Part shown: positions 1 to 39,020 of the stretch, one piece after another
How positions within the stretch are numbered: position 1 is the first letter of the stretch
How the letters are laid out: each line of letters opens with the position of its first letter
NCBI RefSeq assembly: GCF_004570975.1
Contig: NZ_SPPC01000005.1
Span: forward strand, 1-64,000
Reading direction: 5' to 3'
DNA length: 64,000 bases
Source: Barnesiella sp. WM24
GTDB lineage: Bacteria > Bacteroidota > Bacteroidia > Bacteroidales > Muribaculaceae
Program-made: the position numbers and the translations under genes
Notes under the pieces: generated by a model
The model's database searches: none
What the model was told of the DNA's origin: nothing
The model's input: only the letters and a program-made list of their open reading frames with translations

Positions 1-267
1 TAATTGGGGGGGGTGATAGAGGGGTGGAAAAATACCGTTTTTTCAAAATAGACCCCCGATTTTTGCATTTCACTATTAAGAAAAAACCATCACTCTGCGA
101 GTTTGCACCTTATTAAATAAGGTAATTTCAGTGATTTAGGTGGTTTTATGACCCGTTTTGAGGGGGGGTAACACCCCGGAAAAGGGCGGTTCGGTGATCC
201 GCCGGGGTTCCCTTTGGTATCCATTTCGTTCAGTTGGGACATATCCCATATTTATCCCACATCTCTT
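1..267. other. Probable left-end region of the Mu-like prophage
   Basis: No gene is seen here. The repressor stop codon lies 268 bases in, much as the Mu repressor lies close to attL, so the prophage terminus may be near or just before base 1. CGTTTT-type elements at about 35-51, 152-167 and 222-238 resemble the three repeats near 36.2 kb and could be MuA-type binding sites, but the match is weak. Two G tracts occur, eight G at 6-13 and seven G at 162-168. The host junction and target duplication cannot be identified. Confidence 0.35.
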
Positions 268-675
268 TTAGTCTGCCGGGGAAGTCGAAAGTTCCCTTGG
301 GGCATCTTGATAGGGTGCCGTGGGTTCGTTTTTTTCGCGCTCAAGCTGCTCAATGCGCTCCTTGAGGTGACCTATCTCTTCTGCCTGAGCAACAATACGG
401 TCAAGGAATTGATTCTCATCTTTTGCAACTTCTTTTGTGGGTATTGGTGCTTCATCAAGGTGTAGTGCAGGTGTTCCTCTACCTGTGATAAGCCAATCGA
501 TATTGACCTGTTCACAAACTGAAAACACAAGTGGCAAATCTATCGAATTACGGTTTCGCCAATTAGAAAGTGTGGCCTTCTTGATGCCAAGAAGGTCAGC
601 TAATTCAGTATCAGTTCCTACTGATAAGGCCGTTTTTAGACGGTTTAGAATGTCATCTGAAGAAAAAGTTTTCAT
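268..675 (-). CDS. Phage CI-like repressor with N-terminal HTH
   Basis: 135 aa. Residues 1-70 form a helix-turn-helix of the phage CI repressor/BetR type (TELADLLGIKKATLSNW as recognition region, followed by the IDWLITGRGTP turn common in this family). Residues about 90-113 are a predicted coiled coil suited to dimerisation. There is no S24 peptidase domain, so RecA-dependent self-cleavage is not expected. It is divergent from the early operon and separated from it by a region with a strong promoter and two palindromes. This position and domain suggest it is the lysogeny repressor (Mu c equivalent). Family assignment is good; the operator assignment is inference. Confidence 0.8.
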   Translation of the reverse strand: MKTFSSDDILNRLKTALSVGTDTELADLLGIKKATLSNWRNRNSIDLPLVFSVCEQVNIDWLITGRGTPALHLDEAPIPTKEVAKDENQFLDRIVAQAEEIGHLKERIEQLEREKNEPTAPYQDAPRELSTSPAD

Positions 676-2577: not shown

Positions 2578-4578
2578 ATGGAATACTACGGTGACAGACT
2601 TTGCATCTCGATGCGCGACCTTGTAGCTGGCGGCATTATGTCGGAACCCAACTACAAGCAGCTTGCCGCCCGTGGCCGCTTTGATGTGGTGCGGAAAGGT
2701 CGCGGTCAGGGATGTTATGCGTTGGTTGCCGTTGACAGCTTACCCCAACGCTACCAAGACAAAGTCAAAGAGGTTTATCCCGACGGCGCACAGGCTCGAC
2801 TTGAGGGTTGGATAAAGAGCAACTACGAAATTGACCAACAGGCTACCGTCTTCTTCTTCTCAAAAGAGAAGTGCGGAGTGGCACTCCCACGCGAGAAGGC
2901 ACAGGAATACATCACCAACGCCTCAGTGCTCAACACATGCATCAAGCTCTATGAGAGAGCAGCCACCGCGCAGAAACTCTTCGGAGGCAAGTATGATTGG
3001 GGTATGATGACAGCGACCATCGAGATATTGCGCAAGCATTTCGGCCACACCCTCCCGGCATCGACACTGCGGTTCCGCAAAAAGGTCAATGACTACAAGG
3101 CCAACGGATATGCCTGTCTGATCAGCGGCAAGTTCGGCAATCAGTCGGCACGAAAGGTCGATTACAAGACTGAGCGTCTTATCCTTGGCATCGCAGTTCA
3201 GCCCAACAAGCCTTGGAACACCAACGTCCTCGAATTATACAACTCCTTTGTGACAGGCGAATTTGATGTCTTTGACCCGGATACAGGCGAACTCTTCAAT
3301 CCCGATGACTTTACCGACAAGAACGGAGAACCGATGGTTCTAAGCGAAGCTACAATATGTAACTACCTCAACAAGCCGAAAAACAGGGCACTAATAGACC
3401 ATCGCCTCATGACTCCGATAACCTTCATGCACGAGGTAATGCCCCACATGCACCGCCATCACGGCGAGTTCTCACTGTCGAAGGTATCATTCGACGACCG
3501 TGACCTTCCGCGAAAGCTCAAGGATACCCGGATTCGCCCGAAGGCATACTACGCCTATGATGTCACAAGTGGATGCTGCATCGGCTACGCCTACAACCGA
3601 ACCAAGAACGTCGACCTTGTTGTGGATATGTTCCGGAATATGTTCCGGCTGCTTGACCGCCAAGGCTGGGGTTGCCCTGCCGAGGTAGAGGTAGAAAACC
3701 ACCTCATGAGCCAATGGCGAGATTCCTTCCTCCGAGCCGGAGTCATGTTCCCCTTTGTGCGGTTCTGCGCCCCCATGAACTCACAGGAGAAACACGCCGA
3801 GCAGTTCAACGGCGCAAAAAAGCGGAGTATCGAGCACCGCAACCATGTTGGCATCGGCAAGTTCTTCGCCAAGAGCAGACAGTATCGCACTGAGAGCAAC
3901 AAGGTATTCGATGAGTTTAACAACACCTACGTCGAGAAAGAATACTACACTTGGGACGAATTGATCGCTGACGATATGCGTGACATCTACGAATACAACC
4001 ATGCCCTGCACCCCAATCAGAAAAAGTACAAGGGCATGACACGATGGGATGTGCTTGTCGCCAACATCAACCCGACACTGCAACCCCTCGACAAAGCGAC
4101 CATCGCCCGGTATGTAGGCGAGAGAGTCGGCACCACAATCCGGCGAAACTCATATTGCCGGGTAGCCGGAGAGGATTGGTGGCTTAGCAAGACAGAGGCC
4201 ATTGAGCTGCTCTCACCGAATGACTATAAGGTCGAGGCTTACTATCTAACCGACGAAGAGGGCAAAGTAACTGATATGTTCATCTACCAAGGCGATATGT
4301 ATATCGACCGCCTTGAAAATATCGGAACCTACAACACAGCCCGTGCCGAGCAGACCGAGGCGGACGAGAGAATCTTCGTGGAGCAGCGCAAAAAAATCAG
4401 CCAGTTCAACAAATATGTAGAGGATAACGCTATCGGGCGTGTGGGCGTAATAGAGCGCGACACACGGTCTCAGACTATCGAGGTGGAAGAAGTTATCGTC
4501 CCGGAGCCGGAAACGCGAGAAACGCAAGATTATGGCCTCAGTGAAGATTACGCTGCACGAGCCTTGCAAGACTTATAG
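2578..4578 (+). CDS. MuA-like DDE transposase
   Basis: 666 aa, close to Mu A (663 aa). Residues 1-80 look like the MuA N-terminal DNA-binding module. The catalytic core begins near residue 295: D306/D307 in SFDDRD is the first acidic residue, and E408 in KHAEQFN fits the third. At the place of the second catalytic Asp the sequence is VEVENHL, giving E373 in place of D. A charged C-terminus (about 580-666) would contact MuB. It makes strand transfer for both integration and replication of the phage. MuB lies directly downstream, which supports the call. Confidence 0.9.
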   Translation: MEYYGDRLCISMRDLVAGGIMSEPNYKQLAARGRFDVVRKGRGQGCYALVAVDSLPQRYQDKVKEVYPDGAQARLEGWIKSNYEIDQQATVFFFSKEKCGVALPREKAQEYITNASVLNTCIKLYERAATAQKLFGGKYDWGMMTATIEILRKHFGHTLPASTLRFRKKVNDYKANGYACLISGKFGNQSARKVDYKTERLILGIAVQPNKPWNTNVLELYNSFVTGEFDVFDPDTGELFNPDDFTDKNGEPMVLSEATICNYLNKPKNRALIDHRLMTPITFMHEVMPHMHRHHGEFSLSKVSFDDRDLPRKLKDTRIRPKAYYAYDVTSGCCIGYAYNRTKNVDLVVDMFRNMFRLLDRQGWGCPAEVEVENHLMSQWRDSFLRAGVMFPFVRFCAPMNSQEKHAEQFNGAKKRSIEHRNHVGIGKFFAKSRQYRTESNKVFDEFNNTYVEKEYYTWDELIADDMRDIYEYNHALHPNQKKYKGMTRWDVLVANINPTLQPLDKATIARYVGERVGTTIRRNSYCRVAGEDWWLSKTEAIELLSPNDYKVEAYYLTDEEGKVTDMFIYQGDMYIDRLENIGTYNTARAEQTEADERIFVEQRKKISQFNKYVEDNAIGRVGVIERDTRSQTIEVEEVIVPEPETRETQDYGLSEDYAARALQDL

Positions 4579-4634: not shown

Positions 4635-5507
4635 ATGATTACAACAGAAGTCAAAAACAAAATCCTCGCCGCAATCAAGGCGAACCGCGCCAACTATCCA
4701 AGCGACGCAAAGCATGCCGCCTCCCTCGGCATCACTACCTCGGTTTACAGCGCGGTCAAGAACGGTCAGACCGACCGTGTTCTGAGCGATGCCAACTGGA
4801 TAAGCATCGCCCGGAAGCTCGGAGTCAGCCTCCGGGGAGAGATTGAATGGAAGGTGGCTAAGACCCCGACATTCATGTTCATTACAGCGCAGTTGGAGGC
4901 CTGTCAGTCGAGCGGCATCAGCGCAATCCTCTGTGACCTGCCCAATATCGGCAAGACCTTCACTGCCCGGCACTACGTCAAGACGCACCCCAACACCATC
5001 TACATTGACTGCTCGCAGGTCAAGACCAAGCTCAAGCTCGTGCGTAAGATAGCCGCAGAGTTCGGCGTGGACAGCAAAGGGCGGTACTCAGATGTGTATG
5101 AAGACCTCGTTTACTACCTCGGCTCCATCGACAGCCCCCTCATCATTCTCGATGAAGCCGGTGACCTTCAGTATGAGGCTTTCCTTGAGCTGAAAGCACT
5201 GTGGAACGCTACCGAGCGGTGCTGTGCATGGTATATGATGGGAGCCGACGGTCTCAAGGAGAAAATCAACCGCTCCATCGAGTGCAAGAAGGTTGGCTAC
5301 ACCGAGATGCTCAGCCGCTACGGCGACCGCTACAGCAAGGTCACGCCGGACGACAGCAAGGAGCGTACCAAGTTCCTCATAGAACAGGCACGAATCGTGG
5401 CCAAGCTCAATGCCCCGGAAGGAGTCGATGCCGGGGAGATAGCCCGGAAGACCGGCGGCGGACTTCGACGAGTTTATACCGAAATCGAAAAACTTAAAAG
5501 ACAATGA
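4635..5507 (+). CDS. MuB-like AAA+ target-selection ATPase
   Basis: 290 aa (Mu B is 312). An N-terminal helical HTH-like region (residues 1-60) is followed by Walker A at LPNIGKT (about residue 100) and Walker B at LIILDEAGD (about residue 173). In the Mu family this ATPase coats target DNA, delivers it to the transposase and gives target immunity. The gene follows the transposase with a 56-base gap and overlaps the next start by four bases. Confidence 0.88.
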   Translation: MITTEVKNKILAAIKANRANYPSDAKHAASLGITTSVYSAVKNGQTDRVLSDANWISIARKLGVSLRGEIEWKVAKTPTFMFITAQLEACQSSGISAILCDLPNIGKTFTARHYVKTHPNTIYIDCSQVKTKLKLVRKIAAEFGVDSKGRYSDVYEDLVYYLGSIDSPLIILDEAGDLQYEAFLELKALWNATERCCAWYMMGADGLKEKINRSIECKKVGYTEMLSRYGDRYSKVTPDDSKERTKFLIEQARIVAKLNAPEGVDAGEIARKTGGGLRRVYTEIEKLKRQ

Positions 5508-9903: not shown

Positions 9904-10749
9904 TTATGTGGCATTGTAAGTCGGTGACGTGAATAACATCATGTCAGTATAATGGGCATTGTAGTTCATCGTCGCGTTAAACTCCTTGCGGCTGCAACGC
10001 TCGAACGGGTTGCCGAGTGACGGGTTGCGGCCCATCCATTCGCACAACTCCACGAGGCATGATTTCTCGGAAGTAAAATAAACAAAGTTATGGCCCGACA
10101 GCACCGACAGCACATCGAGGTAATCCGCGAGTCGCCAGTACATGCGGTATGTGCCCACGTCGGTAGACAGATAAGGCGGGTCTACGAGGAACACCACACC
10201 GGGCACATCCTTGAAACGCTCGAACAGTTCCCGGTAGTCGCACGATTCAATTTCCAGTCCGGCGAGATAATCCGGACATTCGGCATATCCGGCCTTGCGC
10301 ACATTATTGTAGAGCGTTTCCTTGCGCATCTCCGGGATGCTCATCTTATACTTCATAGAGAACATTAGCGACGAGGACAGGGTGATGAAGTCGAGGTAGC
10401 CTGTTTCCTGCTCTTCCTGCTTAAGCAGGGCGAATATACGCTCCCTTGCCTCTCCTGTAATGGGCTTGTGCCGCCCGAAACCGTCGGATATTGGTCTGAT
10501 AAGGTCAAGTAGGACATTGGTGCGCGGAATATTGGCTATGCGCAGCCGGTAGTCGTCGAAGTCATTGTAGATGACCCGTGAATCGGGATGGGTGTGCTTG
10601 GTGATGTGTGACAACAGTCCCGAGCCACCGAAAAGGTCAACGAAGACGGTGCCGGCCGGATATTGCTTTATTACTTCGATGAAGTGTTTGGCGAACATAC
10701 GCTTCTGCCCGACGAATGGCAGGGGAGCGGACAGATAAAGGCGGCTCAT
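9904..10749 (-). CDS. D12-class DNA adenine N6-methyltransferase
   Basis: 281 aa. Motif X PFVGQKR (residues about 11-17), motif I DLFGGSG (about 38-44) and motif IV DPPY (about 191-194) define a Dam-like D12-class enzyme that methylates the exocyclic amine of adenine. Target site cannot be read from sequence. Its ATG overlaps the stop of the TS-like gene (ATGA), so the two are translationally coupled. In Mu the comparable slot is filled by the mom DNA modification genes; here a methylase with a nucleotide-modifying partner may serve anti-restriction. No restriction enzyme is nearby. Confidence 0.85.
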   Translation of the reverse strand: MSRLYLSAPLPFVGQKRMFAKHFIEVIKQYPAGTVFVDLFGGSGLLSHITKHTHPDSRVIYNDFDDYRLRIANIPRTNVLLDLIRPISDGFGRHKPITGEARERIFALLKQEEQETGYLDFITLSSSLMFSMKYKMSIPEMRKETLYNNVRKAGYAECPDYLAGLEIESCDYRELFERFKDVPGVVFLVDPPYLSTDVGTYRMYWRLADYLDVLSVLSGHNFVYFTSEKSCLVELCEWMGRNPSLGNPFERCSRKEFNATMNYNAHYTDMMLFTSPTYNAT

Positions 10750-11390
10750 ACGTTCAGTTCGAATTTGACGCTGTCCTCTCCGGCGAGAAGTCGGCGGGTA
10801 TTGTCAATATTGTTGTCATACACATGTACGTTGCCCAGGAACAGTGTTATTGACTTGAGGGGGAAGTCGATGTGCCGGGCCATGAGGTAGAGGTGGTATA
10901 TGTCGGCCGGCAGTCCGAGGTTGGCGTCGGAGCTGCGCTGGTAGGCGGACACCACCAGCTCGCCGTCCTCGATCTGGAACTGAACGAGTGACAAGCATGG
11001 GGTCTGATTGCTCTCTGCCTCGGTCGCTCCGAGGAACAGCACATAGTTCTTTGACGGTCGACGCTCGGTATTGATCCTGGCGAGCAGCGGCGGGAGCTTC
11101 TCGAAATAGGTGGGATAGGAGTTGACCAGGATCGAACCACAGTAGTCCCACCAGTTTATGCCGGCCTCGCGGTACTTCTCCACAGAGCGCTCGCCGCTCA
11201 TGAAGAGCCTCAGCTCGGAGCGTAGCTTCTTGCGGGCCAGTCCGTGTCCCTCGAAAATTTCAAGCAGGTCGGCAGGAGTAAGTGAGAGCTGCTCATTGAT
11301 AAGGTAAGTTATATTGCCCTTCTTGTTGACCTGGTGCCTGCCGTTGTCAAGAATCCTGGCGAGGATTTGGTGATATTTGTTGCGTGCCAT
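10746..11390 (-). CDS. Thymidylate-synthase-fold enzyme, predicted dCMP-type
   Basis: 214 aa from the ATG at 11390 (27 bases inside the longest frame). Alignment by eye to ThyA is clear: E59 in SELRLF matches the catalytic Glu of HELLWF, INWWDY matches the active-site Trp region, C132 in TPC is the nucleophile, QRSSD (151-155) is the phosphate and folate motif QRSCD, and VHVY (188-191) matches THLY. The Asn that selects dUMP (PFNIA in ThyA) is Asp163 (PADIY). Asn to Asp at this site is the signature of dCMP hydroxymethylases, and the same change turns L. casei TS into a dCMP methylase. His after the Cys is Leu, and the protein is about 50 residues shorter than ThyA. Operon with adenine methylase. 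Confidence 0.8.
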   Translation of the reverse strand: MARNKYHQILARILDNGRHQVNKKGNITYLINEQLSLTPADLLEIFEGHGLARKKLRSELRLFMSGERSVEKYREAGINWWDYCGSILVNSYPTYFEKLPPLLARINTERRPSKNYVLFLGATEAESNQTPCLSLVQFQIEDGELVVSAYQRSSDANLGLPADIYHLYLMARHIDFPLKSITLFLGNVHVYDNNIDNTRRLLAGEDSVKFELNV

Positions 11391-11460: not shown

Positions 11461-11733
11461 TCACACTGCACGCGGATTGCAGTCATTCTTTGCCGGGCAA
11501 ATCGGCAGAGCCGATGACTGGAAACGCTTTATCAGGCTGTATACCTTCCTCTCGCTCACGCCATATTTGTCGGCCAGAACCGCCACTGCATACGATACCT
11601 TGTCGCCGGCGCCGACCATATTGTTGAAGTCAACAAAAAGGTCGATGTAGGCGATGTCCTCGAGCCTTACGCCAATGCGGCGCAGTCTTTCGAGCAGTTC
11701 GCGGTTGAAATTCAGCACTTCAAATATTGTCAT
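11461..11733 (-). CDS. Small HTH protein (Mor-like position)
   Basis: 90 aa. The C-terminal half contains LADKYGVSERKVYSLIKRF, a helix-turn-helix recognition region like that in Mor/C-type activators and small sigma-like regulators. The N-terminus is a leucine-rich helix. It is first in the minus-strand block with the TS-like and methylase genes (71-base gap). Its start lies a few bases from a divergent promoter for the structured RNA at 11761. It may regulate this block or the late operons. Confidence 0.5.
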   Translation of the reverse strand: MTIFEVLNFNRELLERLRRIGVRLEDIAYIDLFVDFNNMVGAGDKVSYAVAVLADKYGVSERKVYSLIKRFQSSALPICPAKNDCNPRAV

Positions 11734-12619: not shown

Positions 12620-12690
12620 ACGATTCCGTGGCTAATGACCACCGATTCGTTGCAGAAGGAGGAATGAGCGATCATTCCTCTGACTTTTTA
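12620..12690 (+). ncRNA. Candidate short RNA antisense to the MuF gene end
   Basis: Predicted transcript of about 70 bases. First hairpin at 12621-12649 has two mismatches. The second is GAGGAATGA-GCGA-TCATTCCTC (12659-12680), a perfect 9-bp stem with a tetraloop, followed by TGAC and TTTTT, a good intrinsic terminator on this strand. The 3' part overlaps the last codons and stop of the minus-strand MuF gene. It may regulate that gene or simply end convergent transcription. Confidence 0.45.
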
Positions 12691-14006
12691 TATAGCAGCC
12701 TTAGGTGGCCATTTTCGTTTAACCATACTTCTGAGATATGATGACCATCCTTTAACCGTTGATTTATTACGCGCTTCATGTACGCGTCAGTAAGGTCTGG
12801 TTTGTCAATGATAATTCGGTCAGATTGTTTTAGTCCGTGGTTTACCATATTAGAGAAAGCGCGTTTGGGATTGTCGGTCACAAAGCCCTCATGCTCGTAC
12901 CAGTAATCGTCTATTTTTAGGTCAGGACACTTGCCGTAATAACGGGTTCCGCGTAGCGAGCCGTATACACAGTCGTATTCAAACCTTGCAGGGCGAGTCA
13001 TTTTGGGCGTCAGAACAACCCTTGCGCCATCGGCGGCAAAATGCCGTGCGACAGACAGCAGCCGATCATAATCCCCGTCAGTACGATCGACAAGGTGACT
13101 TATCTCGATTGTGCCTTTGCCGTGCTTTATCACTTCGCCCCGTAGCTGTTCACATTGGTGAACGAGGGCACATGCCTGGCACACCTCGTTATCCGGCACA
13201 AACGCCAGTTTGCGGCCTTTGCCACCTTTCGCGATAGGGCAGGTCGAGCAACGGCGGATGGTATATGGATTGTAGTCCGGGACGGATTTGCCCTCCTTGC
13301 CGGCGTTGAACCGAAAGATACCTTTTGTGTCGCGCTGCAGGGCCTCATCTCCAAGGCGCATCGCCTCGTCATGGGGAGTTTCAGGATACTTTGATTTGCG
13401 CACCTGGACGACAGTGCAGCGGCAGTTCCAACCGTTCGGCGGGTAGAACTCCTCCCAGAATGAATCAGAAAGCGGCAGAGTCACACGGTCGAGTGCGGCA
13501 TGTTCCGGGCGCACCTTGTCATCGCGCTGTGTACGGTACTGGAGATTGTATCGGTCGCCGTCGCGCATGAACTGCTCCCACCGGCCGGCCATCTCCGCAG
13601 ATGCGGCCACGAAGTTATATTCAGCCCGGAGGTAATTGGAATTATAGGTTTTGTCGATGCTTTGAACATCATTCAAAAACCGTTCGAATGGCTTTCTATT
13701 GCCGTTCTCGTCAAGCAGCGACGGGAACGCCTCGTGCAGCTCATGAAATGCCTTCATGCCGGAGAAAATGTAATTCGACCGGGTCAGGCGCCGGCGCATC
13801 GCATCAGACATCTCCAACTTCTGAAAGGCAGAGTCGAGAGCCGAGGCATGAGCATTGACAAACTCCTGCACAGCCGGATCGGCTACAAGCTCGACACGGA
13901 ACTGCGCTCCTTGCTCTTTGAAAAGCGACTTCATCATGCCTGAGAACAGCAAGGACAGACGCTTGCGCAAATCATCGCCGGGAGCGGCAAGGTTCTCTAT
14001 GACCAC
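12672..14006 (-). CDS. MuF head protein with toxin-like C-terminus
   Basis: 444 aa from a GTG. Residues about 100-215 form the Mu gp30/SPP1 gp7 (MuF) domain, with the hallmark TLPLSDSFWEEFYPPNGWNC(RC). A cysteine cluster follows (CSTCPIAKG, CQACALVHQC). Residues about 340-444 (CPDLKIDDYWYE, QSDRIIIDK, EVWLNENGHLRLLY) resemble the CdiA-type tRNase/BECR nuclease domains fused to MuF in other phages. Coding-like sequence continues in frame upstream to about 14063 (SPSDYEGLHRRYA), so the real start is probably there at a non-ATG codon. Last gene of the leftward head operon. No immunity gene recognised. Confidence 0.75.
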   Translation of the reverse strand: MVIENLAAPGDDLRKRLSLLFSGMMKSLFKEQGAQFRVELVADPAVQEFVNAHASALDSAFQKLEMSDAMRRRLTRSNYIFSGMKAFHELHEAFPSLLDENGNRKPFERFLNDVQSIDKTYNSNYLRAEYNFVAASAEMAGRWEQFMRDGDRYNLQYRTQRDDKVRPEHAALDRVTLPLSDSFWEEFYPPNGWNCRCTVVQVRKSKYPETPHDEAMRLGDEALQRDTKGIFRFNAGKEGKSVPDYNPYTIRRCSTCPIAKGGKGRKLAFVPDNEVCQACALVHQCEQLRGEVIKHGKGTIEISHLVDRTDGDYDRLLSVARHFAADGARVVLTPKMTRPARFEYDCVYGSLRGTRYYGKCPDLKIDDYWYEHEGFVTDNPKRAFSNMVNHGLKQSDRIIIDKPDLTDAYMKRVINQRLKDGHHISEVWLNENGHLRLLYKKSEE

Positions 14007-29665: not shown

Positions 29666-30850
29666 ATGGCTACAAAATTTTTCGGATTTAATTTCAAGCC
29701 GCTGCGGGTGTCCCGCTCGATGGAGGTGCTCGGCTCCGTGCCGGCGCGCCAGAAGGTCAACCCCGCCGACGGCGGTCACTCGCCCGACTACACCCTGACA
29801 CCGCTGACGCTGTTCCCCCATGTCACGGTGCGCGACCCCAACGGCATCACCCCCTCGGGTGACGGCAACCAGCGGCTCGCAAACATAAGGTGGCATGTCG
29901 TGCGCGACGGCGTCAAGTCGCTCATCGACTTCACCAAGCCGTCGGGCTATGTGCTGCTTGGCGCGGAGGGCTCTGCTAACGCAGGCTGTCTTGAGGTGGG
30001 TGTCAACGCCGACCCGGGACGCCCGCTGACGCTGGTGTTCTCCGCCGACCTGCCAGACACGGCGACCTCCCAGGTGCATCACGTGGAGATGTCGTTTCCG
30101 GTAGTCGCCTATGCCGACACTTGCGAGTCCCGCATAGAGCTTGACTGCGCCCCGCAGGTGCCTTATAACCCGCTCCGCATGCCGGCGCAGATGACGGTCA
30201 ACGCCCGCCTGATGTACGGCGGCACGGAGGTGACACCGCCTGATGTGAGGTTTGTGTGGCAGCGGCTGCGTGATGACGGCACATGGGGGCTGACCGGCAC
30301 CGACGTGCTTGACTACGACGTGGAGGTCAGCGCCGACACCGCCTCTGCGACAGTGCGCCGCGACCTGATGGGTCAGCGTCTCTGCCTGCGGGTCATCGCC
30401 CTTTATGAGCCGGGGACCGACCCGACCACGCTTGCGCCGGCCGACGACAGCCCGCACTCGGTAGTGACCCTGAACAGGTACATACCGGAGATGCACTGTG
30501 ATATCGCGGGAGTGCCGATGAACGTGACTCCCGGGCTGACCGCCGTATATCCGGAGGCGGTGGTGACCGACAACTGCGGTGTGGTCACCGGATGGGAGTC
30601 GGTCTTTGACGCAGTGTGGCGCATAGGCAAGAACCGCCGTCCTGAAGCGTCGGGTGCCGCGCAGCCCACCATCTCCTATGTGACCGTGGGCAGGGGCTCG
30701 GGCATAGCCGTCCCGCTGTCGGCTGTGGCTGACATGAGCAGCGGCGCCATCATCGACCTTACCCTTGAAGACCGCGGCCCGCTGTGTGCGCTCGCCGACT
30801 CCGACGGGGCGGTGCTCACCGATGATGACGGTGCCATACTGCTTGCGTGA
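29666..30850 (+). CDS. Baseplate/tail-tip structural protein
   Basis: 394 aa from the ATG at 29666; the longer frame overlaps the previous gene. Beta-rich, cysteine-poor, ending in DGAVLTDDDGAILLA. The FVWQRLRDDGTWGLTG segment resembles Ig-like phage tail domains, also seen in the gene at 31245. No enzyme motif. It belongs to the GC-rich tail module 28.3-33.7 kb. Confidence 0.5.
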   Translation: MATKFFGFNFKPLRVSRSMEVLGSVPARQKVNPADGGHSPDYTLTPLTLFPHVTVRDPNGITPSGDGNQRLANIRWHVVRDGVKSLIDFTKPSGYVLLGAEGSANAGCLEVGVNADPGRPLTLVFSADLPDTATSQVHHVEMSFPVVAYADTCESRIELDCAPQVPYNPLRMPAQMTVNARLMYGGTEVTPPDVRFVWQRLRDDGTWGLTGTDVLDYDVEVSADTASATVRRDLMGQRLCLRVIALYEPGTDPTTLAPADDSPHSVVTLNRYIPEMHCDIAGVPMNVTPGLTAVYPEAVVTDNCGVVTGWESVFDAVWRIGKNRRPEASGAAQPTISYVTVGRGSGIAVPLSAVADMSSGAIIDLTLEDRGPLCALADSDGAVLTDDDGAILLA

Positions 30851-30882
30851 ATAACAGAAAACCATATTAACACCATATAATC

Positions 30883-31248
30883 ATGTCATACTACATCAAA
30901 GTAAACAAGAAGGTACGTGACTTCCTGTCACTCCCGAACCGCCCGACGCAGCTGCCGGACGGCAATTTCCTGCTATGGCAAGCCGACATGCTTGCCTTCG
31001 GACCCGTCTACAGGCTCATGGAGACATGTGCCTCGATAGGCGCGGTGGCACTCACCCCGGCACAGGCGGCACAGGAGCAGCGCGGCATCATCACGACCAC
31101 GCTTCCCGTGGCGACCGACCCGCGCTTTATCATGGATGAAGAGCCCGCTGACGTCGACCCCGGGTCTGACGAGACCGCGGATGATGAAAGCACCACGGAT
31201 GATGACGGTGACGCCGACATCACAGCGGAGGAAGGAGGCGGGCGATGA
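30883..31248 (+). CDS. Small tail-region protein with acidic C-terminus
   Basis: 121 aa. N-terminal two thirds are a compact domain (GNFLLWQADMLAFGPVYRLMETC), the last 35 residues are almost all Asp, Glu, Thr and Ser. Stop overlaps the next start (ATGA). Coupling with tail genes suggests a tail accessory or chaperone. Confidence 0.5.
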   Translation: MSYYIKVNKKVRDFLSLPNRPTQLPDGNFLLWQADMLAFGPVYRLMETCASIGAVALTPAQAAQEQRGIITTTLPVATDPRFIMDEEPADVDPGSDETADDESTTDDDGDADITAEEGGGR

Positions 31249-32321
31249 GCAAGGGAAGCGCGTCATGCACCGTGAAGTACCGCCGCAAGACAGGCACGTT
31301 CTCGGCGGTGGTGATGGACCCGAAAGGGAACGTCTATCAGGAGTACACCGACTACACCGGCGGCAAGGCTACCGGGGTGTCGCCCGACTTCTCCCGGACA
31401 CAGCCCGAGCTGGCGTTTGTGTGTACATCGTCGCGCGTCACCGAGGGGCTGGCACAGGTGGCGTCGCTCAGGGTGACGTTCGGCACGCGGCAGGTGGTGT
31501 TTGACACCTCCGGCAGCTCCCTGGGGCTTCAGACGGTGTCGGGGGTCGACTCCTCGGCCGCCGGCACGTTCAGGCTCCTGCCGCCCGACAACGACAGCCC
31601 CTACTGGAGGGTAAGGATAATGAAAGACATCGTGGAGCTTGCCGGCGGTCAGCCTGTCAACATCACGCTCACGGGCAGTGTCTCCGATGCCGACGGGAAC
31701 CTCGACGAGATACAGGCGTCGTATCAGGTCGCCATCTCCAAGAGGACGGGCACGGGCTACAGGCTGTCGATAGTCGCCGGTGACTCCAACATGTTCACCA
31801 TCCGCGAGAAAGGCGGCTCGTGTGTGCTCAGGGGCGAGGTCTACGGCACCGACGGCTCGGTCGTGACATCCGGCATCACATGGCAGTGGCAGAGGATGTC
31901 GCAGTCGGGATGGGTGGACTGCACCGGAAAGACCGCGGCGACGCTGACAGTCAACGAGGCTGACGTGGACACCTATGGGGAGTTCCGCCTGAAGGCGACC
32001 GTCGGCTCGGACACATACACCGACGTGCAGGGTGTCATGGATGTCTCCGACCCTTATGTGCTTGAGCCAAACCCGACGCCCATCGACGAGGTGATCGACG
32101 ATGACGACCCCGCGGGCAAGGTGAGCTATTCCCCACGGCTGTTCAAGCGTGGCAGCAACACGGCAATAGCCGGACAGAAGTTTGACTTCGTGGCGATGTC
32201 GGCGGCAGGGGTCAGGATAGGCTCCGCGACGGCGGTGACGACTTTTGAGGTGACCCACGCGATGGCGCAGCAGGCGGCGTCGGAGGGTGACATAACCGTG
32301 ACCATATATGCGTGTGACTGA
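31245..32321 (+). CDS. Ig-like tail protein
   Basis: 358 aa. Residues about 180-270 form an Ig/BIG-like module (GITWQWQRMSQSGWVDCTGKTAATLTVNEADVDTYGEF has the Trp and DxYG pattern). Starts with an overlapping ATGA and ends sharing bases with the next start (TGATG). Probably part of the tail tip where Ig domains bind surface sugars weakly. Confidence 0.55.
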   Translation: MSKGSASCTVKYRRKTGTFSAVVMDPKGNVYQEYTDYTGGKATGVSPDFSRTQPELAFVCTSSRVTEGLAQVASLRVTFGTRQVVFDTSGSSLGLQTVSGVDSSAAGTFRLLPPDNDSPYWRVRIMKDIVELAGGQPVNITLTGSVSDADGNLDEIQASYQVAISKRTGTGYRLSIVAGDSNMFTIREKGGSCVLRGEVYGTDGSVVTSGITWQWQRMSQSGWVDCTGKTAATLTVNEADVDTYGEFRLKATVGSDTYTDVQGVMDVSDPYVLEPNPTPIDEVIDDDDPAGKVSYSPRLFKRGSNTAIAGQKFDFVAMSAAGVRIGSATAVTTFEVTHAMAQQAASEGDITVTIYACD

Positions 32322-33733
32322 TGAAGGCGAGTGCGACCACAACGGTAAGAATCGCCCGTAAGGGGCGGGACGGGGTGTCGGTGAACGTGTCACCGCAGAA
32401 TGTAGTGTTCAGTCAGGGCGGCGCAGTGCGCACCGTGGAGGTATATGTCGACCTGTATTCGGGCGGCGACAGGATACCCTATCAGGACGCGGACAGGGGC
32501 GACATGCAATGCTCGGTTCTCGGTCCGAGTAGCAGCATCGTGCTCGGTGCCGACGGGGAGCGCATCGGAGGGCTGTTCTGGCGCTACGGGACGACTGACG
32601 AGGGGCGGTTCTATTATGTGTTGTCAAAGTCGCCCGGTGTTGTCGTTAACGCGACCGTGCCGTTCACGGTACTGTGGGACGGCATGAGACTGCCGGGCAC
32701 CATCGAGGTTGTCACTGTCCCCGACGGGGAGCGCGGGCCTGTGCCGCGTGGGCCGGTGTACTGGAAGGACTACCCCGGGGAGTTCCCGTTTGAGAGCGGC
32801 GCATCGGGCGAGACATATTTTGACACGGTGTATAACATAATATCCGGGCAGAAGAAATTCTACACATGCAGGCACAGCCACACAAAGGCCGCCGCACGTG
32901 AGCCGGGGGTGTCGGCAAACTGGGACACCTATTGGGAGGCCGCGTCGGAGATTCCGTTTCTTGTCACAAGATACGCGCTTGTCGACTTCCTCAGCACCGA
33001 GCAGGTGACCCTGAAAAACCTTTCGCTGATTGACAGCCACGTCCCCACCATCGGGGAGATATACGGCATACCGAAGGACATAGCCACGGAAGTCACGGCA
33101 CAGACCGGGGCGAGCGGCAGCGGCAGCAGCGATGTCGGGTCGGCGTCAAGCCCGAGGACTGTCACCGTGACAAAGACCGTCTCCATTTCAGGCAGGGGTT
33201 ATGGACGCTGCTACTTCGGCACGTCGCTTGTCAACACCTCCGGCTCGGCTTCGCGGCACACGGTAAACATCATGTCGGTCACGGCAAAGGTCAACGGTAT
33301 CGCGGTGACCGATGACGGCAGCGGCTTCAGCTTCACGGTGGCACCAGGCGTGACGAGCTACAGAATCGAGGTCACATACAGCTACTGGCTCCGTTATGCC
33401 GGCTCGACATCAGGCTCGGTGTCTCAGCTGTCGGTCTACAATGTCGAGGCGCGCATAGGCGGCGCCGGTATGACCGGCTACATGAGGTTTTTCCCGAAAC
33501 CCGCGCCCGAAGACCGTGACCCGCGCACAATAGTAGGCACAAACGGGTTTGTGACCACCGATGATGACGAGATGCTTTTCCATGTGCAGCACACCGAGGA
33601 GAGCCATGACGGTCACACATACCCCAAGGCTGTCACGATGCTTGTGGGTAATTTCGGGATAAGGATAACCGGCAGGGGTATAGAGCGGACGCTTGACGGC
33701 GGTCTCGGATGGCTGTCGGGAATCGACATATAG
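32321..33733 (+). CDS. Tail-tip/fibre-base protein
   Basis: 470 aa, beta-rich. A segment FYTCRHSHTKAAAREPGVSANW ... YWEAA is common in Bacteroidales phage tail proteins. The C-terminus ends in IERTLDGGLGWLSGIDI, typical of proteins to which fibres attach. It is followed after 32 bases by the row of small fibre genes. Function inferred from order. Confidence 0.55.
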   Translation: MKASATTTVRIARKGRDGVSVNVSPQNVVFSQGGAVRTVEVYVDLYSGGDRIPYQDADRGDMQCSVLGPSSSIVLGADGERIGGLFWRYGTTDEGRFYYVLSKSPGVVVNATVPFTVLWDGMRLPGTIEVVTVPDGERGPVPRGPVYWKDYPGEFPFESGASGETYFDTVYNIISGQKKFYTCRHSHTKAAAREPGVSANWDTYWEAASEIPFLVTRYALVDFLSTEQVTLKNLSLIDSHVPTIGEIYGIPKDIATEVTAQTGASGSGSSDVGSASSPRTVTVTKTVSISGRGYGRCYFGTSLVNTSGSASRHTVNIMSVTAKVNGIAVTDDGSGFSFTVAPGVTSYRIEVTYSYWLRYAGSTSGSVSQLSVYNVEARIGGAGMTGYMRFFPKPAPEDRDPRTIVGTNGFVTTDDDEMLFHVQHTEESHDGHTYPKAVTMLVGNFGIRITGRGIERTLDGGLGWLSGIDI

Positions 33734-33765
33734 AAATATAAATCAATCATTTAATACTGTTTTTT

Positions 33766-34305
33766 ATGAATAAGACAAAAACATTAAAGGAGACTCCGGA
33801 GGTGACGGCACTCGCCGCCACTGACCAGGTACTCGTTACGGATTCTGCGGGCAAGGCGCACAGAATCTCAAAGGCGAATCTGCTCGCGGACAGAGTGCGG
33901 TTTAACGGCACCGGCGCGGGGTGTTGGGTGAGGGTCGCGAAGTTTTTTGATTCAGCAGGCTGTCTGTTGGCTATCACTTCTAATTGGTATTCAAAACCGG
34001 TGCATCGGATTCTTGCGGACTCGCTTCTGCACTCAAATCAATGTAGTTACTGTCACATGTCGGTTTTGTCATCGGGGAACGCCATCGCTACGCCTATGAA
34101 CATCACAAAAGCAAGGGTTGTTGCTAGTTTCAATAAGGTCGGCTATATCGACATTTATTGTAACATGACTTCGGCTGACACCATTATTATCGACCTTATA
34201 AACTCGCTGAATGTCACCTTGATGACCCCCGTGGTCAACGCGGAGGTGCCCGACGGTTACAGCACGAAAGAGTTTGACCTGACCCAAACAGCGTGGGGGG
34301 GGTAA
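33766..34305 (+). CDS. Tail fibre/adhesin, first of a series
   Basis: 179 aa. The N-terminus (LKETPEVTALAATDQVLVTDSAGKA) is the short attachment module found in the fibre genes at 34670 and 35162. The rest is beta-rich and cysteine-containing. The gene ends in TAWGG at an eight-G run (34295-34302) directly before TAA; a change of one G would add 16 or more residues. This suggests a phase-variable C-terminus or a frame error. Confidence 0.6.
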   Translation: MNKTKTLKETPEVTALAATDQVLVTDSAGKAHRISKANLLADRVRFNGTGAGCWVRVAKFFDSAGCLLAITSNWYSKPVHRILADSLLHSNQCSYCHMSVLSSGNAIATPMNITKARVVASFNKVGYIDIYCNMTSADTIIIDLINSLNVTLMTPVVNAEVPDGYSTKEFDLTQTAWGG

Positions 34306-34353
34306 AATACTCCCTATCAGCGCGTTACAGCGTAGCGCAGAAAGGAGGGCGGC

Positions 34354-34644
34354 ATGAGCACCACAAAAACAAAACCGCTTACCAAGGCGCTGCTGGCAGG
34401 CATCATGGACAATGCTGTTATATCCAGAGGCAGGGCAACAGATTTCAACGCAAGTATGGCATCCGGAGTTTATTCATGTTATCAGGCGGAGAACGGTCCG
34501 GAGAAAGACCTCTGGGGTGTTCTGATACACGCGAAAGTATTGGAGAATATATGCGCTCAGTTGTTCTTAACGAACACAGGCAGACTCTATTTCCGCGTTC
34601 TATGGGACAGATGGGACGGCTGGAAAAGAGTGACTACAAGCTGA
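34354..34644 (+). CDS. Small fibre protein with pyocin-knob-like end
   Basis: 96 aa. The segment LTNTGRLYFRVLWDRWDGWKRV resembles the knob domain of R-pyocin-type fibres, which recognise surface polysaccharide. A Shine-Dalgarno-like AAGGAGGGC precedes the ATG. It may be a separate fibre tip that assembles with its neighbours. Confidence 0.5.
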   Translation: MSTTKTKPLTKALLAGIMDNAVISRGRATDFNASMASGVYSCYQAENGPEKDLWGVLIHAKVLENICAQLFLTNTGRLYFRVLWDRWDGWKRVTTS

Positions 34645-34669
34645 CCCTCGGAAAGGAGGTGGTTGCTGC

Positions 34670-35095
34670 ATGAGTACGGTAAAATTGCTCACTGACATGG
34701 TAAAAGCCTTGCCGGAGCTGTCGGGAATAGGCTCTAACATGGTGCTTGCAGCCGCCACCTCGGGTGACCTCGGAAAGATTTCCAAAGAGGCGCTTACGGG
34801 AATGGATGTCACAGTTACGCAGAGCGGCGATTATGTGATTCAAAAAACTGGTGTTCATCTCGTTGCGATATGGGATACTGACGCTTCATCGACTAAATAT
34901 TGGGTCGGTCTGTTCATCAACAGAAACGCGAATACTGACGGCAACATTACCATGATTACCATAGCCGGGGAAGGTTTCCCAGTTTATTATAGCAAATGGG
35001 GCACCTTATTCTTCGGAAATTACAGTGGTAATCTCACTATTGCTTGCATCACCTTGCCCGCTTCCTCTGCCATTTTAGGGGGGGTAAGCGACTGA
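34670..35095 (+). CDS. Tail fibre/adhesin, second of a series
   Basis: 141 aa. N-terminal module KALPELSGIGSNMVLAAATSGDLGKISKEAL is like that of the other two fibre genes. The C-terminus ends AILGGVSD across a seven-G run (35079-35085). AAAGGAGG precedes the ATG. Beta-rich body without enzyme motif. Confidence 0.55.
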   Translation: MSTVKLLTDMVKALPELSGIGSNMVLAAATSGDLGKISKEALTGMDVTVTQSGDYVIQKTGVHLVAIWDTDASSTKYWVGLFINRNANTDGNITMITIAGEGFPVYYSKWGTLFFGNYSGNLTIACITLPASSAILGGVSD

Positions 35096-35161
35096 CTTCC
35101 AACGTATTGAAAATCCCATTGCCGAGTCATTTGAGGCATGGCGCACGAGAGATCAAACATT

Positions 35162-35932
35162 ATGAACTTAATTGACACGACAATGGGAAAAACAAGGAAA
35201 CTTAGCGAAAAGATAAAGGAATTGCCTACAGTGAACGACATGACAGGCAGGACTATCATTACCAACGGCAGTGACGGCTCACTCGGAAAGATGTCGGCTG
35301 AGCTGATGCTCGACGGGGTGTTCATCATGTACCACCGCAAAAGCGACGATACTCCGCTCATGGTGAAACCCCACAAGTGGACGGCGATACAGAACGCTGG
35401 AGAAATCGCCGACGGTGTGGTAGTCGTCGAGGGCGGCAAAGTGCTGGTAGTGGCACCCACCGAAGCCGACAGCGCAGGTATAACGTGGAGTAGCGCGGCG
35501 GTCAGCGGTGGCGCGACCACAACGACCGACCGCGTAACGGCGATGAACGACTGGAACGGTCCGGCAAACACCGCGTCTATCATTTCAAAAAGCACGTCGT
35601 CGGCTGTCACAAATACCAGCGCATGCGCCCCCGGTTTTTGTAACCTCTACAGCCGAGCCAACGCCAACGGCAAAGGACTGACCGCCGGTAAATGGTGGCT
35701 TCCGTCGATAGGCGAAATGATGATGATTTACGCCAACATGACTAAGATAAACTACTGTCTTAGTCTTATCGCCGGGGCAACCCAGTTGATTCAAAACTGG
35801 TACTGGACAAGTACAGAGCACAGCGCGGCTCGCGCATGGGGTCTGTACCTCTACGACGGCGGCCTCGACGGCATGTATACTAAGGCCAGCAGCAAGGGTA
35901 GAGTGCGCCCTGTGTCGACATTCACTCAGTAG
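35162..35932 (+). CDS. Fibre with C-type-lectin domain (DGR variable-protein type)
   Basis: 256 aa from the ATG at 35162, chosen because the attachment module (LPTVNDMTGRTIITNGSDGSLGKMS) then sits as in its neighbours; 35138 is also possible. Residues about 165-256 are a C-type-lectin/DUF1566-like domain (KWWLPSIGEMMMIYANM ... WYWTSTEHSAARAWGLYLYDGG ... RVRPVSTF), the family that carries the variable region in diversity-generating retroelements of Bacteroidales phages. No reverse transcriptase, Avd or template repeat is visible in the window. Confidence 0.7.
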   Translation: MNLIDTTMGKTRKLSEKIKELPTVNDMTGRTIITNGSDGSLGKMSAELMLDGVFIMYHRKSDDTPLMVKPHKWTAIQNAGEIADGVVVVEGGKVLVVAPTEADSAGITWSSAAVSGGATTTTDRVTAMNDWNGPANTASIISKSTSSAVTNTSACAPGFCNLYSRANANGKGLTAGKWWLPSIGEMMMIYANMTKINYCLSLIAGATQLIQNWYWTSTEHSAARAWGLYLYDGGLDGMYTKASSKGRVRPVSTFTQ

Positions 35933-35936
35933 CCTA

Positions 35937-35964
35937 ATCCCCGGCGGCTGCGAATAGCCGGGGA
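35937..35964 (+). terminator. GC-rich hairpin after the lectin gene
   Basis: CCCCGGC and GCCGGGG form a 7-bp stem around a short loop five bases after the stop. There is no T run, so it may not be a terminator. DGR targets often carry a hairpin just downstream of the variable region that is needed for retrohoming. Confidence 0.5.
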
Positions 35965-35986
35965 ACAACTTTAAAGCAATGGAAAA

Positions 35987-36070
35987 ATGACAGAAACAAA
36001 CAACATTTTCGCAGTCGCCATGACTGCATGCGGGACTATGATGCTTATCAAGGATGTAATCGGTGAGTAG
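35987..36070 (+). CDS. Very small ORF, 27 aa
   Basis: ATG at 35987 to TAG at 36068 encodes MTETNNIFAVAMTACGTMML and seven more residues. A hydrophobic middle suggests a short membrane-interacting peptide. It follows the fibre genes and precedes a hairpin. Too short to be sure it is expressed. Confidence 0.35.
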   Translation: MTETNNIFAVAMTACGTMMLIKDVIGE

Positions 36071-36093
36071 TCATAGCTCTAATTGAAAAATAG

Positions 36094-36124
36094 AATGGCC
36101 TTCGGATGATATTCGGAGGCCATT
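36094..36124. terminator. Hairpin near the prophage right end
   Basis: AATGGCCTTCG pairs with CGGAGGCCATT over 11 bp with one G-U. No T run follows on the plus strand, though the upstream AATTGAAAAATAG gives some T on the minus side. It probably ends late transcription before the phage end. Confidence 0.5.
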
Positions 36125-36195
36125 AACTGATCCAAGCAAAGACAAACTCAATCCAACGAAGCAGACTTTTTAGAAAGATGGTGATTTGGGATACG

Positions 36196-36253
36196 TTTCG
36201 TTTTTCAGAACTGAACACCTCGTTTTCAGGAGCAGGAACATTTCGTTTTGCGG
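36196..36253. repeat. Candidate right-end transposase binding sites
   Basis: Three CGTTTT-centred elements, TTTCGTTTTTCAG (36196), CCTCGTTTTCAGG (36218) and TTTCGTTTTGCGG (36241), are spaced 22 and 23 bases. Contiguous 22-bp sites are the layout of R1-R3 in Mu. The phage terminus would be just beyond, at about 36260-36270. Confidence 0.4.
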
Positions 36254-36269
36254 ATTATAAATATTCACC

Positions 36270-36764
36270 ATGAAGAAAATATTAATATTATTTACTTTAT
36301 TGACATTTAGCCTGTCAGGCTATTCAAATGAGCCTATTTCCCGTCTCAATAATGATAGTATATTATCCAAATTAATAAAAGGTGAACAGGTTATCTTACA
36401 TGACTCGCTGAATCCCTGCGATAGCCTGTACAGAGTAATCGGAAGTAGGAGCTACTATTTAGACAAGAATAAATTCTCAGGGACTGTAATAAAAATAATT
36501 GTTTTTCCGAAAAAAGGCAACAATATTATAATCTCCTTGTACACCGTCGACAAATATAACGGCTATGAATCCATCTATAAACGCGAACTAAATAGAGTAT
36601 CAGAATGGATAGACATGGTTGACATCACCAAACTGATCAAGGACAAGGAACCATGTATCTTTAACGGACTTGCATTTGCCAAAATCTTAGACGTGTTTTT
36701 TATATATGATATAGTACCAAAAACGGCTGAGAAAACAACTGTCAAAAATGATTCCATTAAATGA
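36270..36764 (+). CDS. Small secreted protein, unknown
   Basis: 164 aa with a signal peptide (KKILILFTLLTFSLSGYS). AT-rich, unlike the phage genes. Overlaps the next gene by four bases. It has no recognised domain. As a neighbour of duplicated secreted proteins it may be an immunity or effector-related protein. Confidence 0.55.
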   Translation: MKKILILFTLLTFSLSGYSNEPISRLNNDSILSKLIKGEQVILHDSLNPCDSLYRVIGSRSYYLDKNKFSGTVIKIIVFPKKGNNIIISLYTVDKYNGYESIYKRELNRVSEWIDMVDITKLIKDKEPCIFNGLAFAKILDVFFIYDIVPKTAEKTTVKNDSIK

Positions 36765-37312
36765 AAAGAATTGTAATTCTCGTGGCAAGTCTTATTTTCA
36801 TGGTTGGCATAAGTGGTAAAACCAGGGTCTATACCGCTAATGACCATATTCTCATGGAAATATATAGCGCCTATTTGGCATTAGCCCTATTAAACGCAGA
36901 AAATCACGATTTGCTGCTTACTCTACTTAATGACCCCAATGAGAGGTTTGTAATACTATCACTGCTAAAGCCAGACGATAACTTAGAAAAGATAAAAGTG
37001 TCCAAAAAACCTATTTCATTTTCTGCAGAAGATTCTGACTATATTTGCTCAAGAGTAAAAGAAGAGTTTTTTAAATCAGACACTATTGTTTGCTTTGCGC
37101 TCTATGATGGTTACGGTCTTATTCCGAAAGAAGACTTTGACTTTCTTGACTGCGTTCATACCGTACCTTTCGGCTCTTACTCTTTTCAAAAAGCGATCCA
37201 AAAATCAGGGGCTAAAACTAACGATGAGAAAATACAAGTGCTAAAGGAATGGATAGATGAAACAATGAAGTCATTAAGACTTATGTCTACAGATCCGCGG
37301 AAATGTTTATGA
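36761..37312 (+). CDS. Secreted protein of a duplicated pair, copy 1
   Basis: 183 aa with signal peptide (IVILVASLIFMVGISG). About half identical by eye to the protein at 37545: both share GKTRVYT, SAYLALALL, HDLL, FKSDTI or LKSDTI, and the C-terminal SGAKT-DEKIQ-LKEWID. Function not recognised. The repeated gene-fragment pattern suggests periplasmic immunity proteins kept as orphans. Confidence 0.6.
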   Translation: MKRIVILVASLIFMVGISGKTRVYTANDHILMEIYSAYLALALLNAENHDLLLTLLNDPNERFVILSLLKPDDNLEKIKVSKKPISFSAEDSDYICSRVKEEFFKSDTIVCFALYDGYGLIPKEDFDFLDCVHTVPFGSYSFQKAIQKSGAKTNDEKIQVLKEWIDETMKSLRLMSTDPRKCL

Positions 37313-37548
37313 CAATGCCACTATATACCGATCAAGCCACGATAATGGATATGCCAATACCCGACTGCTTCACAAACGGGGCGGTCAAGCGGGTGATTCT
37401 GAATAGGCCTGATGCGTCTTCTATGTCTTTCGAATCGAAATACAAACTATATGGTAACAAATTTGCCAATTCGTATAAACACATACCTAATTATAATATT
37501 CCTGTAAATAAAGTCCCAAATACATTAAAATATCTGTTACGGAAATGA
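37303..37548 (+). CDS. Short cassette ORF between the duplicated genes
   Basis: 81 aa, overlapping the upstream stop and the downstream start. No signal peptide. It ends in a basic tail (NTLKYLLRK) and contains FESKYKLYGNKFANSYKHIPNYNIP. It has the size of a displaced toxin tip or a fragment of one, but shows no motif. Confidence 0.4.
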   Translation: MFMTMPLYTDQATIMDMPIPDCFTNGAVKRVILNRPDASSMSFESKYKLYGNKFANSYKHIPNYNIPVNKVPNTLKYLLRK

Positions 37549-38099
37549 AAAAAATAATTATTTTATTGACAAGCTTCGTTTTTATCATAAATGTCTATGG
37601 TAAAACTCGTGTCTACACTACTAATGACCACGCATATCTTGACATAGAAAGTGCCTATTTAGCCTTAGCTCTATTAAAGACTGAATACCACGATTTGTTA
37701 TTTACACTACTTGATGACACTAATGAAAGATTGGTGTTTATATCAAATTTGAAGCCGGATAATGATTTAGAACTGGTAAGAATAAGACGTAAACCTAATT
37801 CACTTACAGATAAAGAAGTGGACTCTATTTCAAAAAGTATAAAAGTTGAATTTTTGAAATCAGACACAATTTTTTGTCTGGTCTTACATGAAAATCTTTA
37901 TCACACTAAAGCACAGAGGGACTACGAATATCTTAACAGATATCAGTATCCTGTTTTCAACTCAAGTTTGTTCCAAGACGCAGTAAAAGCCTCAGGAGCA
38001 AAGACTCACGATGAAAAAATACAAGCATTGAAAGAATGGATCGACAAAGTCATGAAACAACCGATAAGAGCATCATCTGACCCATGGAAACTGTTATGA
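37545..38099 (+). CDS. Secreted protein of a duplicated pair, copy 2
   Basis: 184 aa with signal peptide (KKIIILLTSFVFIINVYG), clearly paralogous to the protein at 36761 along its whole length. Both copies end before TTATGACAA and a different short insert. AT-rich. Function unknown. Confidence 0.6.
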   Translation: MKKIIILLTSFVFIINVYGKTRVYTTNDHAYLDIESAYLALALLKTEYHDLLFTLLDDTNERLVFISNLKPDNDLELVRIRRKPNSLTDKEVDSISKSIKVEFLKSDTIFCLVLHENLYHTKAQRDYEYLNRYQYPVFNSSLFQDAVKASGAKTHDEKIQALKEWIDKVMKQPIRASSDPWKLL

Positions 38100-38250
38100 C
38101 AAAGCGGTCACGCGTCGACTTATCCGGTGGTCTACGAGAACGGGCAATTGACCTGTGTTACGTTGCCGCCGGGTACACCACGTTTGCCGATGCCGGGAAA
38201 GGGCGCCTCGGTGCAGCCCTGCAAGTTCGGGGGCAAGCCCCATAGTTTTC
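38100..38250 (+). pseudogene. GC-rich coding fragment
   Basis: In one frame it reads SGHASTYPVVYENGQLTCV and on to KFGGKPHSFL, with no start. Its GC content is visibly higher than on either side, so it was brought in from another source. It sits where the 37303 cassette sits in the previous unit, so it may be the end of a lost toxin or adhesin gene. Confidence 0.4.
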
Positions 38251-38460
38251 TAAATCAGATACTATTTGCTCAGAGGGTTTATATCACACAAAAGCCCAAA
38301 GAGACTATGAATATCTTAACCAATATCAGATAATTATTTTCAATTCAGACTTATTGCAAGAAGCGGTTAAAGCCTCAGAGGGTAAAAACCTCTGATGAGA
38401 AAATACAAGCATTGAAAGAATAGATCTATGACGCATTGTGGCAATTGAGACTAATGTCTG
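38251..38460 (+). pseudogene. Degenerate third copy of the secreted protein
   Basis: Stretches such as AAAGCCCAAAGAGACTATG, TTCAATTCAGACTTATTGC and GAGAAAATACAAGCATTGAA correspond to the end of copy 2 but are interrupted by stops and frame changes. Only the C-terminal third remains. Together with the two intact copies it shows repeated duplication. Confidence 0.5.
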
Positions 38461-38880: not shown

Positions 38881-39020
38881 CACAAAGAAAGGCACATGCA
38901 TGATTAATCGGAGAGCGACAATGAAGCCAGAGTGAGGCAACCGGTGAGTCAGGCTGCCATAGCAGATTTTAGGTATATGCATCCATGCTGCAAAACGATA
39001 GTTATTTCAATGGAATTTCG

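Follow-up and report, generated by a model that had tools for sequence, protein, structure and literature searches.

Within the thymidylate synthase (TS) superfamily, published work assigns the preference for cytosine over uracil to an Asn to Asp change at site 177 (PMC8670742; PMC6400193), and sites 177 and 147 were the top two separating TS proteins of modified from those of unmodified phage DNA in MetaGPA (PMC8670742). For hydroxymethylation, the published signature is an Asp or Glu three residues before the Cys (hereafter Cys-3), plus a Ser followed at +2 by a Tyr, and the D145N variant of the T4 dCMP hydroxymethylase (T4dCH) did not make 5hm-dCMP (PMC6400193). In the genus of phage RB69, 5-hydroxy-dCMP is reported to be made with a TS-superfamily enzyme (PMC13390438), and MilA carries a Lys at the first phosphate-site position (Lys133', linked to ribose use) and Ala176 for Ser167 (PMC5175136). 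Hankyphages are widespread in gut Bacteroides, and their records label a TS-like gene as routine nucleotide metabolism. Among the open-licence PMC papers we found none treating this gene or its activity: a term search for "thymidylate" had no match in PMC6199706, and the excerpts of PMC12135933 did not describe the activity.

We analysed a stretch of 64,000 nucleotides from Barnesiella sp. WM24 (hereafter the window), in which a relative of this gene lies in a Mu-type prophage with the following features:

268..675, - strand: CI-type repressor, at the left end (PF07022, 1.3e-13)
2578..4578, + strand: Mu A-type transposase, in the same prophage as the TS-like gene (phrog_310, 8.6e-51)
4635..5507, + strand: transposition ATPase, Mu B type (phrog_296, 5.5e-40)
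9904..10749, - strand: D12-class DNA adenine methyltransferase, 281 aa, directly 3' of the TS-like gene (PF02086, 7e-9; phrog_56, 2.7e-32; PADLOC MTase_II, 8e-47)
10746..10749, - strand: ATGA shared by the stop codon of the TS-like gene and the start codon of the methyltransferase gene (read from the sequence)
10746..11390, - strand: TS-like protein, 214 aa, with Asp163 at the base-selecting site (ATG start, TGA stop)
11461..11733, - strand: small helix-turn-helix protein, 90 aa, 5' of the TS-like gene, weakly Mor-like (phrog_17790, 6.1e-31; Pfam Mor, 0.001, 19.5 bits, below the cut-off of 24.9)
12672..14006, - strand: Mu F-like head protein (PF04233, 2.5e-13)

The prophage also contains DUF3164 and a Mu-like protease. 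The closest described arrangement is that of hankyphage (Bacteroides phage p00), whose "thymidylate synthase" (BK010646, 41030-41668) belongs to the same family, with 79% identity and the same Asp, and likewise has a small helix-turn-helix protein upstream and an N6 DNA methyltransferase downstream; the cassette is the last in the hankyphage genome, whereas in the window prophage it is internal, between early and head genes.

The TS-like protein matched PF00303 with 71.3 bits (curated cut-off, 24.3), and a monomer structure model, with pLDDT below 50 at residues 80-90 and 122-130, predicted the TS fold that had been expected, residues 3..214 matching 1..264 of E. coli TS. MAFFT and the structural ranges allow a short C-terminal tail, VKFELNV, in the place of the TS tail (pLDDT about 65); the YGxQW strand of TS is missing in the family, the counterpart of TS Tyr94 being Tyr92 or Tyr95. 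PADLOC gave no match for the protein, and T4dCH was not among its best 50 VIA-align rows, which carries no weight either way. Among named relatives the hankyphages came closest: 21 phage records matched at 76.8-79.4% identity along 99-100% of the protein. Every one of the 19 annotated records names it "thymidylate synthase"; the other 2 are unannotated. At least 209 distinct family proteins were collected (aligned match parts of 202-214 residues, none dropped, with the best 80 matches taken from each viral-contig scan), and among the matches listed the lowest identity to the window protein was 64%. They form a gut Bacteroidales group plus a looser set (L166, L197-L271) that is not one clade in the tree and whose one genome match, L166, comes from another order of the same class as the window host. 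Genome sampling recovered the family in 2 of 395 genomes for the phylum and in 7 of 393 for the order, the window's own genome being counted each time. No sequences bridging the family and the remaining TS proteins were found, whether among the 395 Bacteroidota genomes, where scores drop from 362 to 55 bits, among the matches listed (best 80) in the viral-contig scans, or in the scan with the KF-1 query (51 loci). The gene is under purifying selection (pN/pS 0.04-0.24 against ten relatives). An unannotated stretch of 120 nt in a marine Nonlabens phage, P12024L (L272:1378-1497), corresponds with 63% identity to the C-terminal 41 residues of the TS-like protein; there is no longer ORF there, and it is apparently a remnant.

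The original prediction placed Asp163 at the base-selecting site of TS. This reading was borne out: the residue aligned to site 177, and it was Asp in all 209 distinct family proteins, against Asn in 28/28 Bacteroidota ThyA. The Leu after the catalytic Cys, described as a further departure, fits as well, since it occupies site 147, one of the two MetaGPA sites; it was Leu in 208/209 and Ile in 1, with His in all 28 ThyA. Non-His residues at this site are also found in T4 gp42, both BF503P1 proteins, Mercedes and Ioannes (Thr) and AXL1 (Pro). The KF-1-type Asp177 enzymes retain His147 in 50/52 rows, so a non-His residue at 147 is not necessary for a cytosine enzyme. Altogether, five sites identical in the 28 ThyA (Asn177, His147, Leu at Cys-3, Arg126 and Arg127) are all changed in the family. 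The catalytic elements said to be retained were found intact in 209/209, namely Cys132, Glu59 (Glu58 in TS), RSxD (Arg152, Ser153, Asp155) and HxY (His189, Tyr191). Equally invariant were Trp80, Trp81, Asn90, Tyr92, Tyr95, Arg111, Ser113, Lys114, Asn115, Gln129, Pro131, Gln151 and Asn187, and Ser91 and Leu133 were kept in 208/209. Asp155 corresponds to TS site 169, which is bound to folate chemistry in TS, and the invariance of the Cys, the Glu, RSxD and HxY suggests that catalysis and folate use are probably retained. The Asp at the published cytosine/uracil switch site argues, if indirectly, for the predicted action on dCMP, and we regard a cytosine nucleotide as the probable substrate.

The phosphate site departs from TS in another way. 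The R126'/R127' pair, supplied by the second protomer, is replaced by Lys114-Asn115 or Ser113-Lys114, depending on the register, and the substrate thus need not be a plain 5'-monophosphate. The invariant Arg111 may stand in for the lost arginines, and some relaxation of the protein towards CMP is possible. With these arginines gone, it is also conceivable that the TS fold may act on something other than free dCMP.

Ancestry was examined in a tree of 44 rows (12 family members, 10 KF-1-type proteins, 10 of the 28 ThyA and 12 panel proteins). The family fell inside the ThyA/KF-1 side (98/97), separately from T4, SPO1 and the remaining hydroxymethylase-type proteins (97/89); its stem measured 4.8 changes per column, and there were long-branch warnings. 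Joining it with the seven hydroxymethylase-type rows, of which two are uracil-type at site 177, gave an AU p of 0.067, above the 0.05 level for rejection, and joining it with the KF-1 type a p of 0.206. For all Asp177 enzymes of the panel a common origin was rejected (AU p 0.020), which indicates that Asp177 was probably gained more than once. Kinship of the family with T4 gp42 appears doubtful.

Two other kinds of phage "thymidylate synthase" share the Asp. The KF-1/VPMS1-type proteins (52 matches, one of which, below 200 aa, was dropped; the 52 rows contain identical ones, with 43 distinct) resemble the family in having Asp177 in 51/52 rows, mostly with Ser or Ala before it, and in hhalign against the family they scored 98.2, the highest of four Asp177 sets, with 99.6 for the ThyA profile. 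They differ from the window protein in their length (265 aa for KF-1), full C-terminal part, His147, Leu at Cys-3 and retained Arg pair, and from the family in the NTP pyrophosphohydrolase found near 44/51 of their loci. As an observation on these proteins themselves (L278:783-1580, L283-L333, L334:1477-2289), the combination of Asp177 with a nearby pyrophosphohydrolase suggests that they are perhaps misnamed dCMP-modifying enzymes. The second kind is AXL1 gp63 (L282:16623-17564, - strand), annotated as a thymidylate synthase though it has Asp at 177. Like the family, it has a non-His residue at 147 and an amide rather than an acid at Cys-3 (Asn); unlike the window protein, it has 313 aa and adjoins genes for a nucleotide pyrophosphohydrolase, a dCMP deaminase and a DHFR. 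Its counterpart with the same gene neighbours was read as a dTMP synthase in the DLP4 paper. AXL1 is related to the 5mC phage Xp12 (PMC9206674), and by analogy the product of gp63 may be 5-methyl-dCMP.

The neighbours of the TS-like gene were counted in 238 of the loci collected, of 0.7-42.8 kb (median, 7.6 kb), leaving out L081, L082, L165 and L167-L196 (the window itself, ThyA loci and reference phages) as well as loci obtained at a later stage. Some contigs are present twice among them (e.g., L017 and L243), and counts are therefore also given by distinct protein. A D12 methyltransferase of the window type directly followed the TS-like gene in 103 loci and directly preceded it in 72; in 5 loci it was partial or lay elsewhere, and in 58 it was not found, 29 of these reaching less than 700 nt beyond the TS-like gene on its downstream side. 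By distinct protein, a DNA methyltransferase lay within 2.5 kb for 146/192; it was missing for 33 with cut flanks and for 13 despite at least 1.5 kb on both sides. The partner can be of another kind, being a different D12 enzyme in L226, L254 and, by likeness, L227, and an N6_N4 enzyme in L223. A partner that varies both in type and in the side it occupies points to a functional link between the methyltransferase and the TS-like gene. In the reverse view, a TS-like gene was near the hankyphage methyltransferase in 45/72 loci, with none in the stretch examined in 27. A homologue of the helix-turn-helix gene was upstream in 151/238 loci and missing in 81 despite at least 600 nt of sequence. A reverse-transcriptase-like gene lies 5' of the TS-like gene at L163:3461-5110 (RVT_1, 9e-7, 29.2 bits against a cut-off of 29.6); one is also upstream in hankyphage, and similar-looking ORFs occur in L152, L157, L126 and L070.

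Among contigs of at least 30 kb, the TS-like gene lay within 2.5 kb of a contig end, that is, of the end of a public record rather than a mapped phage end, in 36/41 from one viral-contig set and 13/33 from another; in the second it was well inside in 19/33, including L001, an identical relative of the window. In fF4-like transposable phages of Bacteroidetes a DNA-modification gene is among the last ORFs and was likened by the authors to mom (PMC7761591). In many members the cassette resembles Mu mom and the fF4 adenine methylase in placing DNA modification close to the right end of a transposable phage. The original prediction had called a transposable phage an odd place for such an enzyme; with a methyltransferase usually adjoining and this end-of-genome precedent, it is less odd than stated. 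The likeness has a limit: mom acts on adenine in DNA, and the TS-like fold is known for acting on free nucleotides.

Partner enzymes were sought in the same loci. Queries with the KF-1, VPMS1 and AXL1 pyrophosphohydrolases found nothing in the 238 loci or in the window prophage, and recovered 44/51 KF-1-type loci as a control. A profile of 47 pyrophosphohydrolases recovered the same 44 and gave only L098, at E 0.2, among the family loci. As most of the queries derive from relatives of the control itself and the loci have a median of 7.6 kb, a distant or remote enzyme could escape them. Within this scope the earlier statement that no dCTPase is seen agrees with our searches for KF-1/AXL1-type pyrophosphohydrolases, and since no dCTP-removing enzyme was found, full cytosine replacement is not expected. 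T4 has a dCTPase. No matches to dut, DHFR or T4 beta-glucosyltransferase queries were obtained in the 238 loci, and the dCMP deaminase query had one, in L136.

From these results we infer a substrate, a product, a route of incorporation and an anti-restriction role. The short, phage-specific TS-superfamily member would accept a cytosine nucleotide, most likely dCMP, and place one carbon from methylene-tetrahydrofolate at C5, the favoured product being 5-methyl-dCMP. Host kinases would convert this to the triphosphate, and in a phage in which no dCTP-removing enzyme was found the mark would end up on part of the cytosines of the replicating DNA. Together with the product of the adjoining adenine methyltransferase, it could blunt restriction on entry into the next cell, as mom does in Mu. 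As a whole, this explanation is our leading one, held at somewhat less than an even chance; its last part, the partial marking of cytosine alongside adenine methylation, is suggested by the neighbours and position. Against the explanation weigh the 13 distinct proteins and the 27 hankyphage-methyltransferase loci that lack the partner gene, and the internal cassette of the window prophage and of 19/33 contigs. In its fullest form, a two-base cassette, often at the mom position and with one half made on nucleotides, would put a scattered C5-cytosine mark on phage copies and host DNA beside site-specific adenine methylation, which we consider tentative and on balance unlikely. If the gene does mark cytosine, hankyphages would protect their genomes by way of the nucleotide building blocks and not of finished DNA, an unusual route for a phage replicating inside the host chromosome and one that could bear on their broad host range.

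The best of the alternatives is a dCMP hydroxymethylase, in which the exocyclic methylene is quenched by water to give 5-hydroxymethyl-dCMP, as in T4. T4 gp42 shares the Asp at the base-selecting site (179) and a non-His residue after the Cys; the window protein reads VNS before Tyr, similar to INSNY in T4 gp42 and VNSNY in BF503P1, and stops shortly past the HxY helix, as T4dCH does (PMC6400193). In the region of hydroxymethylase Ser94/Tyr96 it reads VNSYPTY, with Tyr at +1 or +4 from the Ser. However, Cys-3 in the family is Gln129 in 209/209 (Leu in 28/28 Bacteroidota ThyA), against Asp in 7/7 hydroxymethylase-type panel proteins, five of which are typed by label or likeness only. The window protein is only 18% identical to T4 gp42, has Lys/Asn or Ser/Lys for its Arg pair (R123/R124), and groups apart from it in the tree, although weakly (p 0.067); the T4 gene adjoins a beta-glucosyltransferase gene, with no such match in the 238 family loci. 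The T4 likeness of the original prediction was thus not upheld as to enzyme type: membership of the T4-type family was rejected on the Cys-3 site, while the likeness in substrate was retained. The choice of methyl over hydroxymethyl draws on one site and a long-stemmed tree, and we judge the hydroxymethylase unlikely, though a serious competitor to 5-methyl-dCMP formation.

Considerably less probable is another cytosine-nucleotide enzyme, either one using CMP as well as dCMP, like MilA, or a 5-hydroxy-dCMP synthase, as in RB69. In one register Lys114 takes the place of MilA Lys133', but Ser153 is present in 209/209 where MilA has Ala176 (PMC5175136). The RB69 protein, ORF48, whose record notes a resemblance to dCMP hydroxymethylase, reads RSQN for RSxD and has no clear Glu58; the family retains RSSD, with Asp155 in 209/209, and the Glu, which argues for folate use. 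As an aside from this one protein, RB69 ORF48 may be the 5-hydroxy-dCMP synthase, with loss of Asp169 defining the type.

Rather improbable, too, is a dTMP route, in which a host dCMP deaminase would turn 5-methyl-dCMP into dTMP, aiding replication instead of marking: the host genome has five PF00383 matches, without substrate assignment, but already encodes ThyA and DHFR, and the neighbours are DNA methyltransferases rather than dut, DHFR (0/238 loci each) or dCMP deaminase (1/238). Least probable, and rejected as the main reading, is an ordinary dTMP synthase with a tolerated Asp, in line with the hankyphage annotation, the predicted TS fold and the catalytic Cys, given that all five ThyA-invariant sites examined are changed and that the protein scores below every listed NCBIfam TS cut-off (e.g., 56.2 against 327 bits and 50.2 against 108.35).

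Elsewhere in the window, a series of short genes with similar starts lies at 33766-35932 (+ strand). The last of them closes with an Lcl_C (C-type-lectin-like) part, which scored 29.9 bits against a cut-off of 34.9; ends of this type are of the sort varied by diversity-generating retroelements. For this series no long repeat pair was found in 30000-39000. At 36761-38459 (+ strand) there is a related gene pair (36761-37312 and 37545-38099), followed by an apparent degraded third copy at about 38282-38459.
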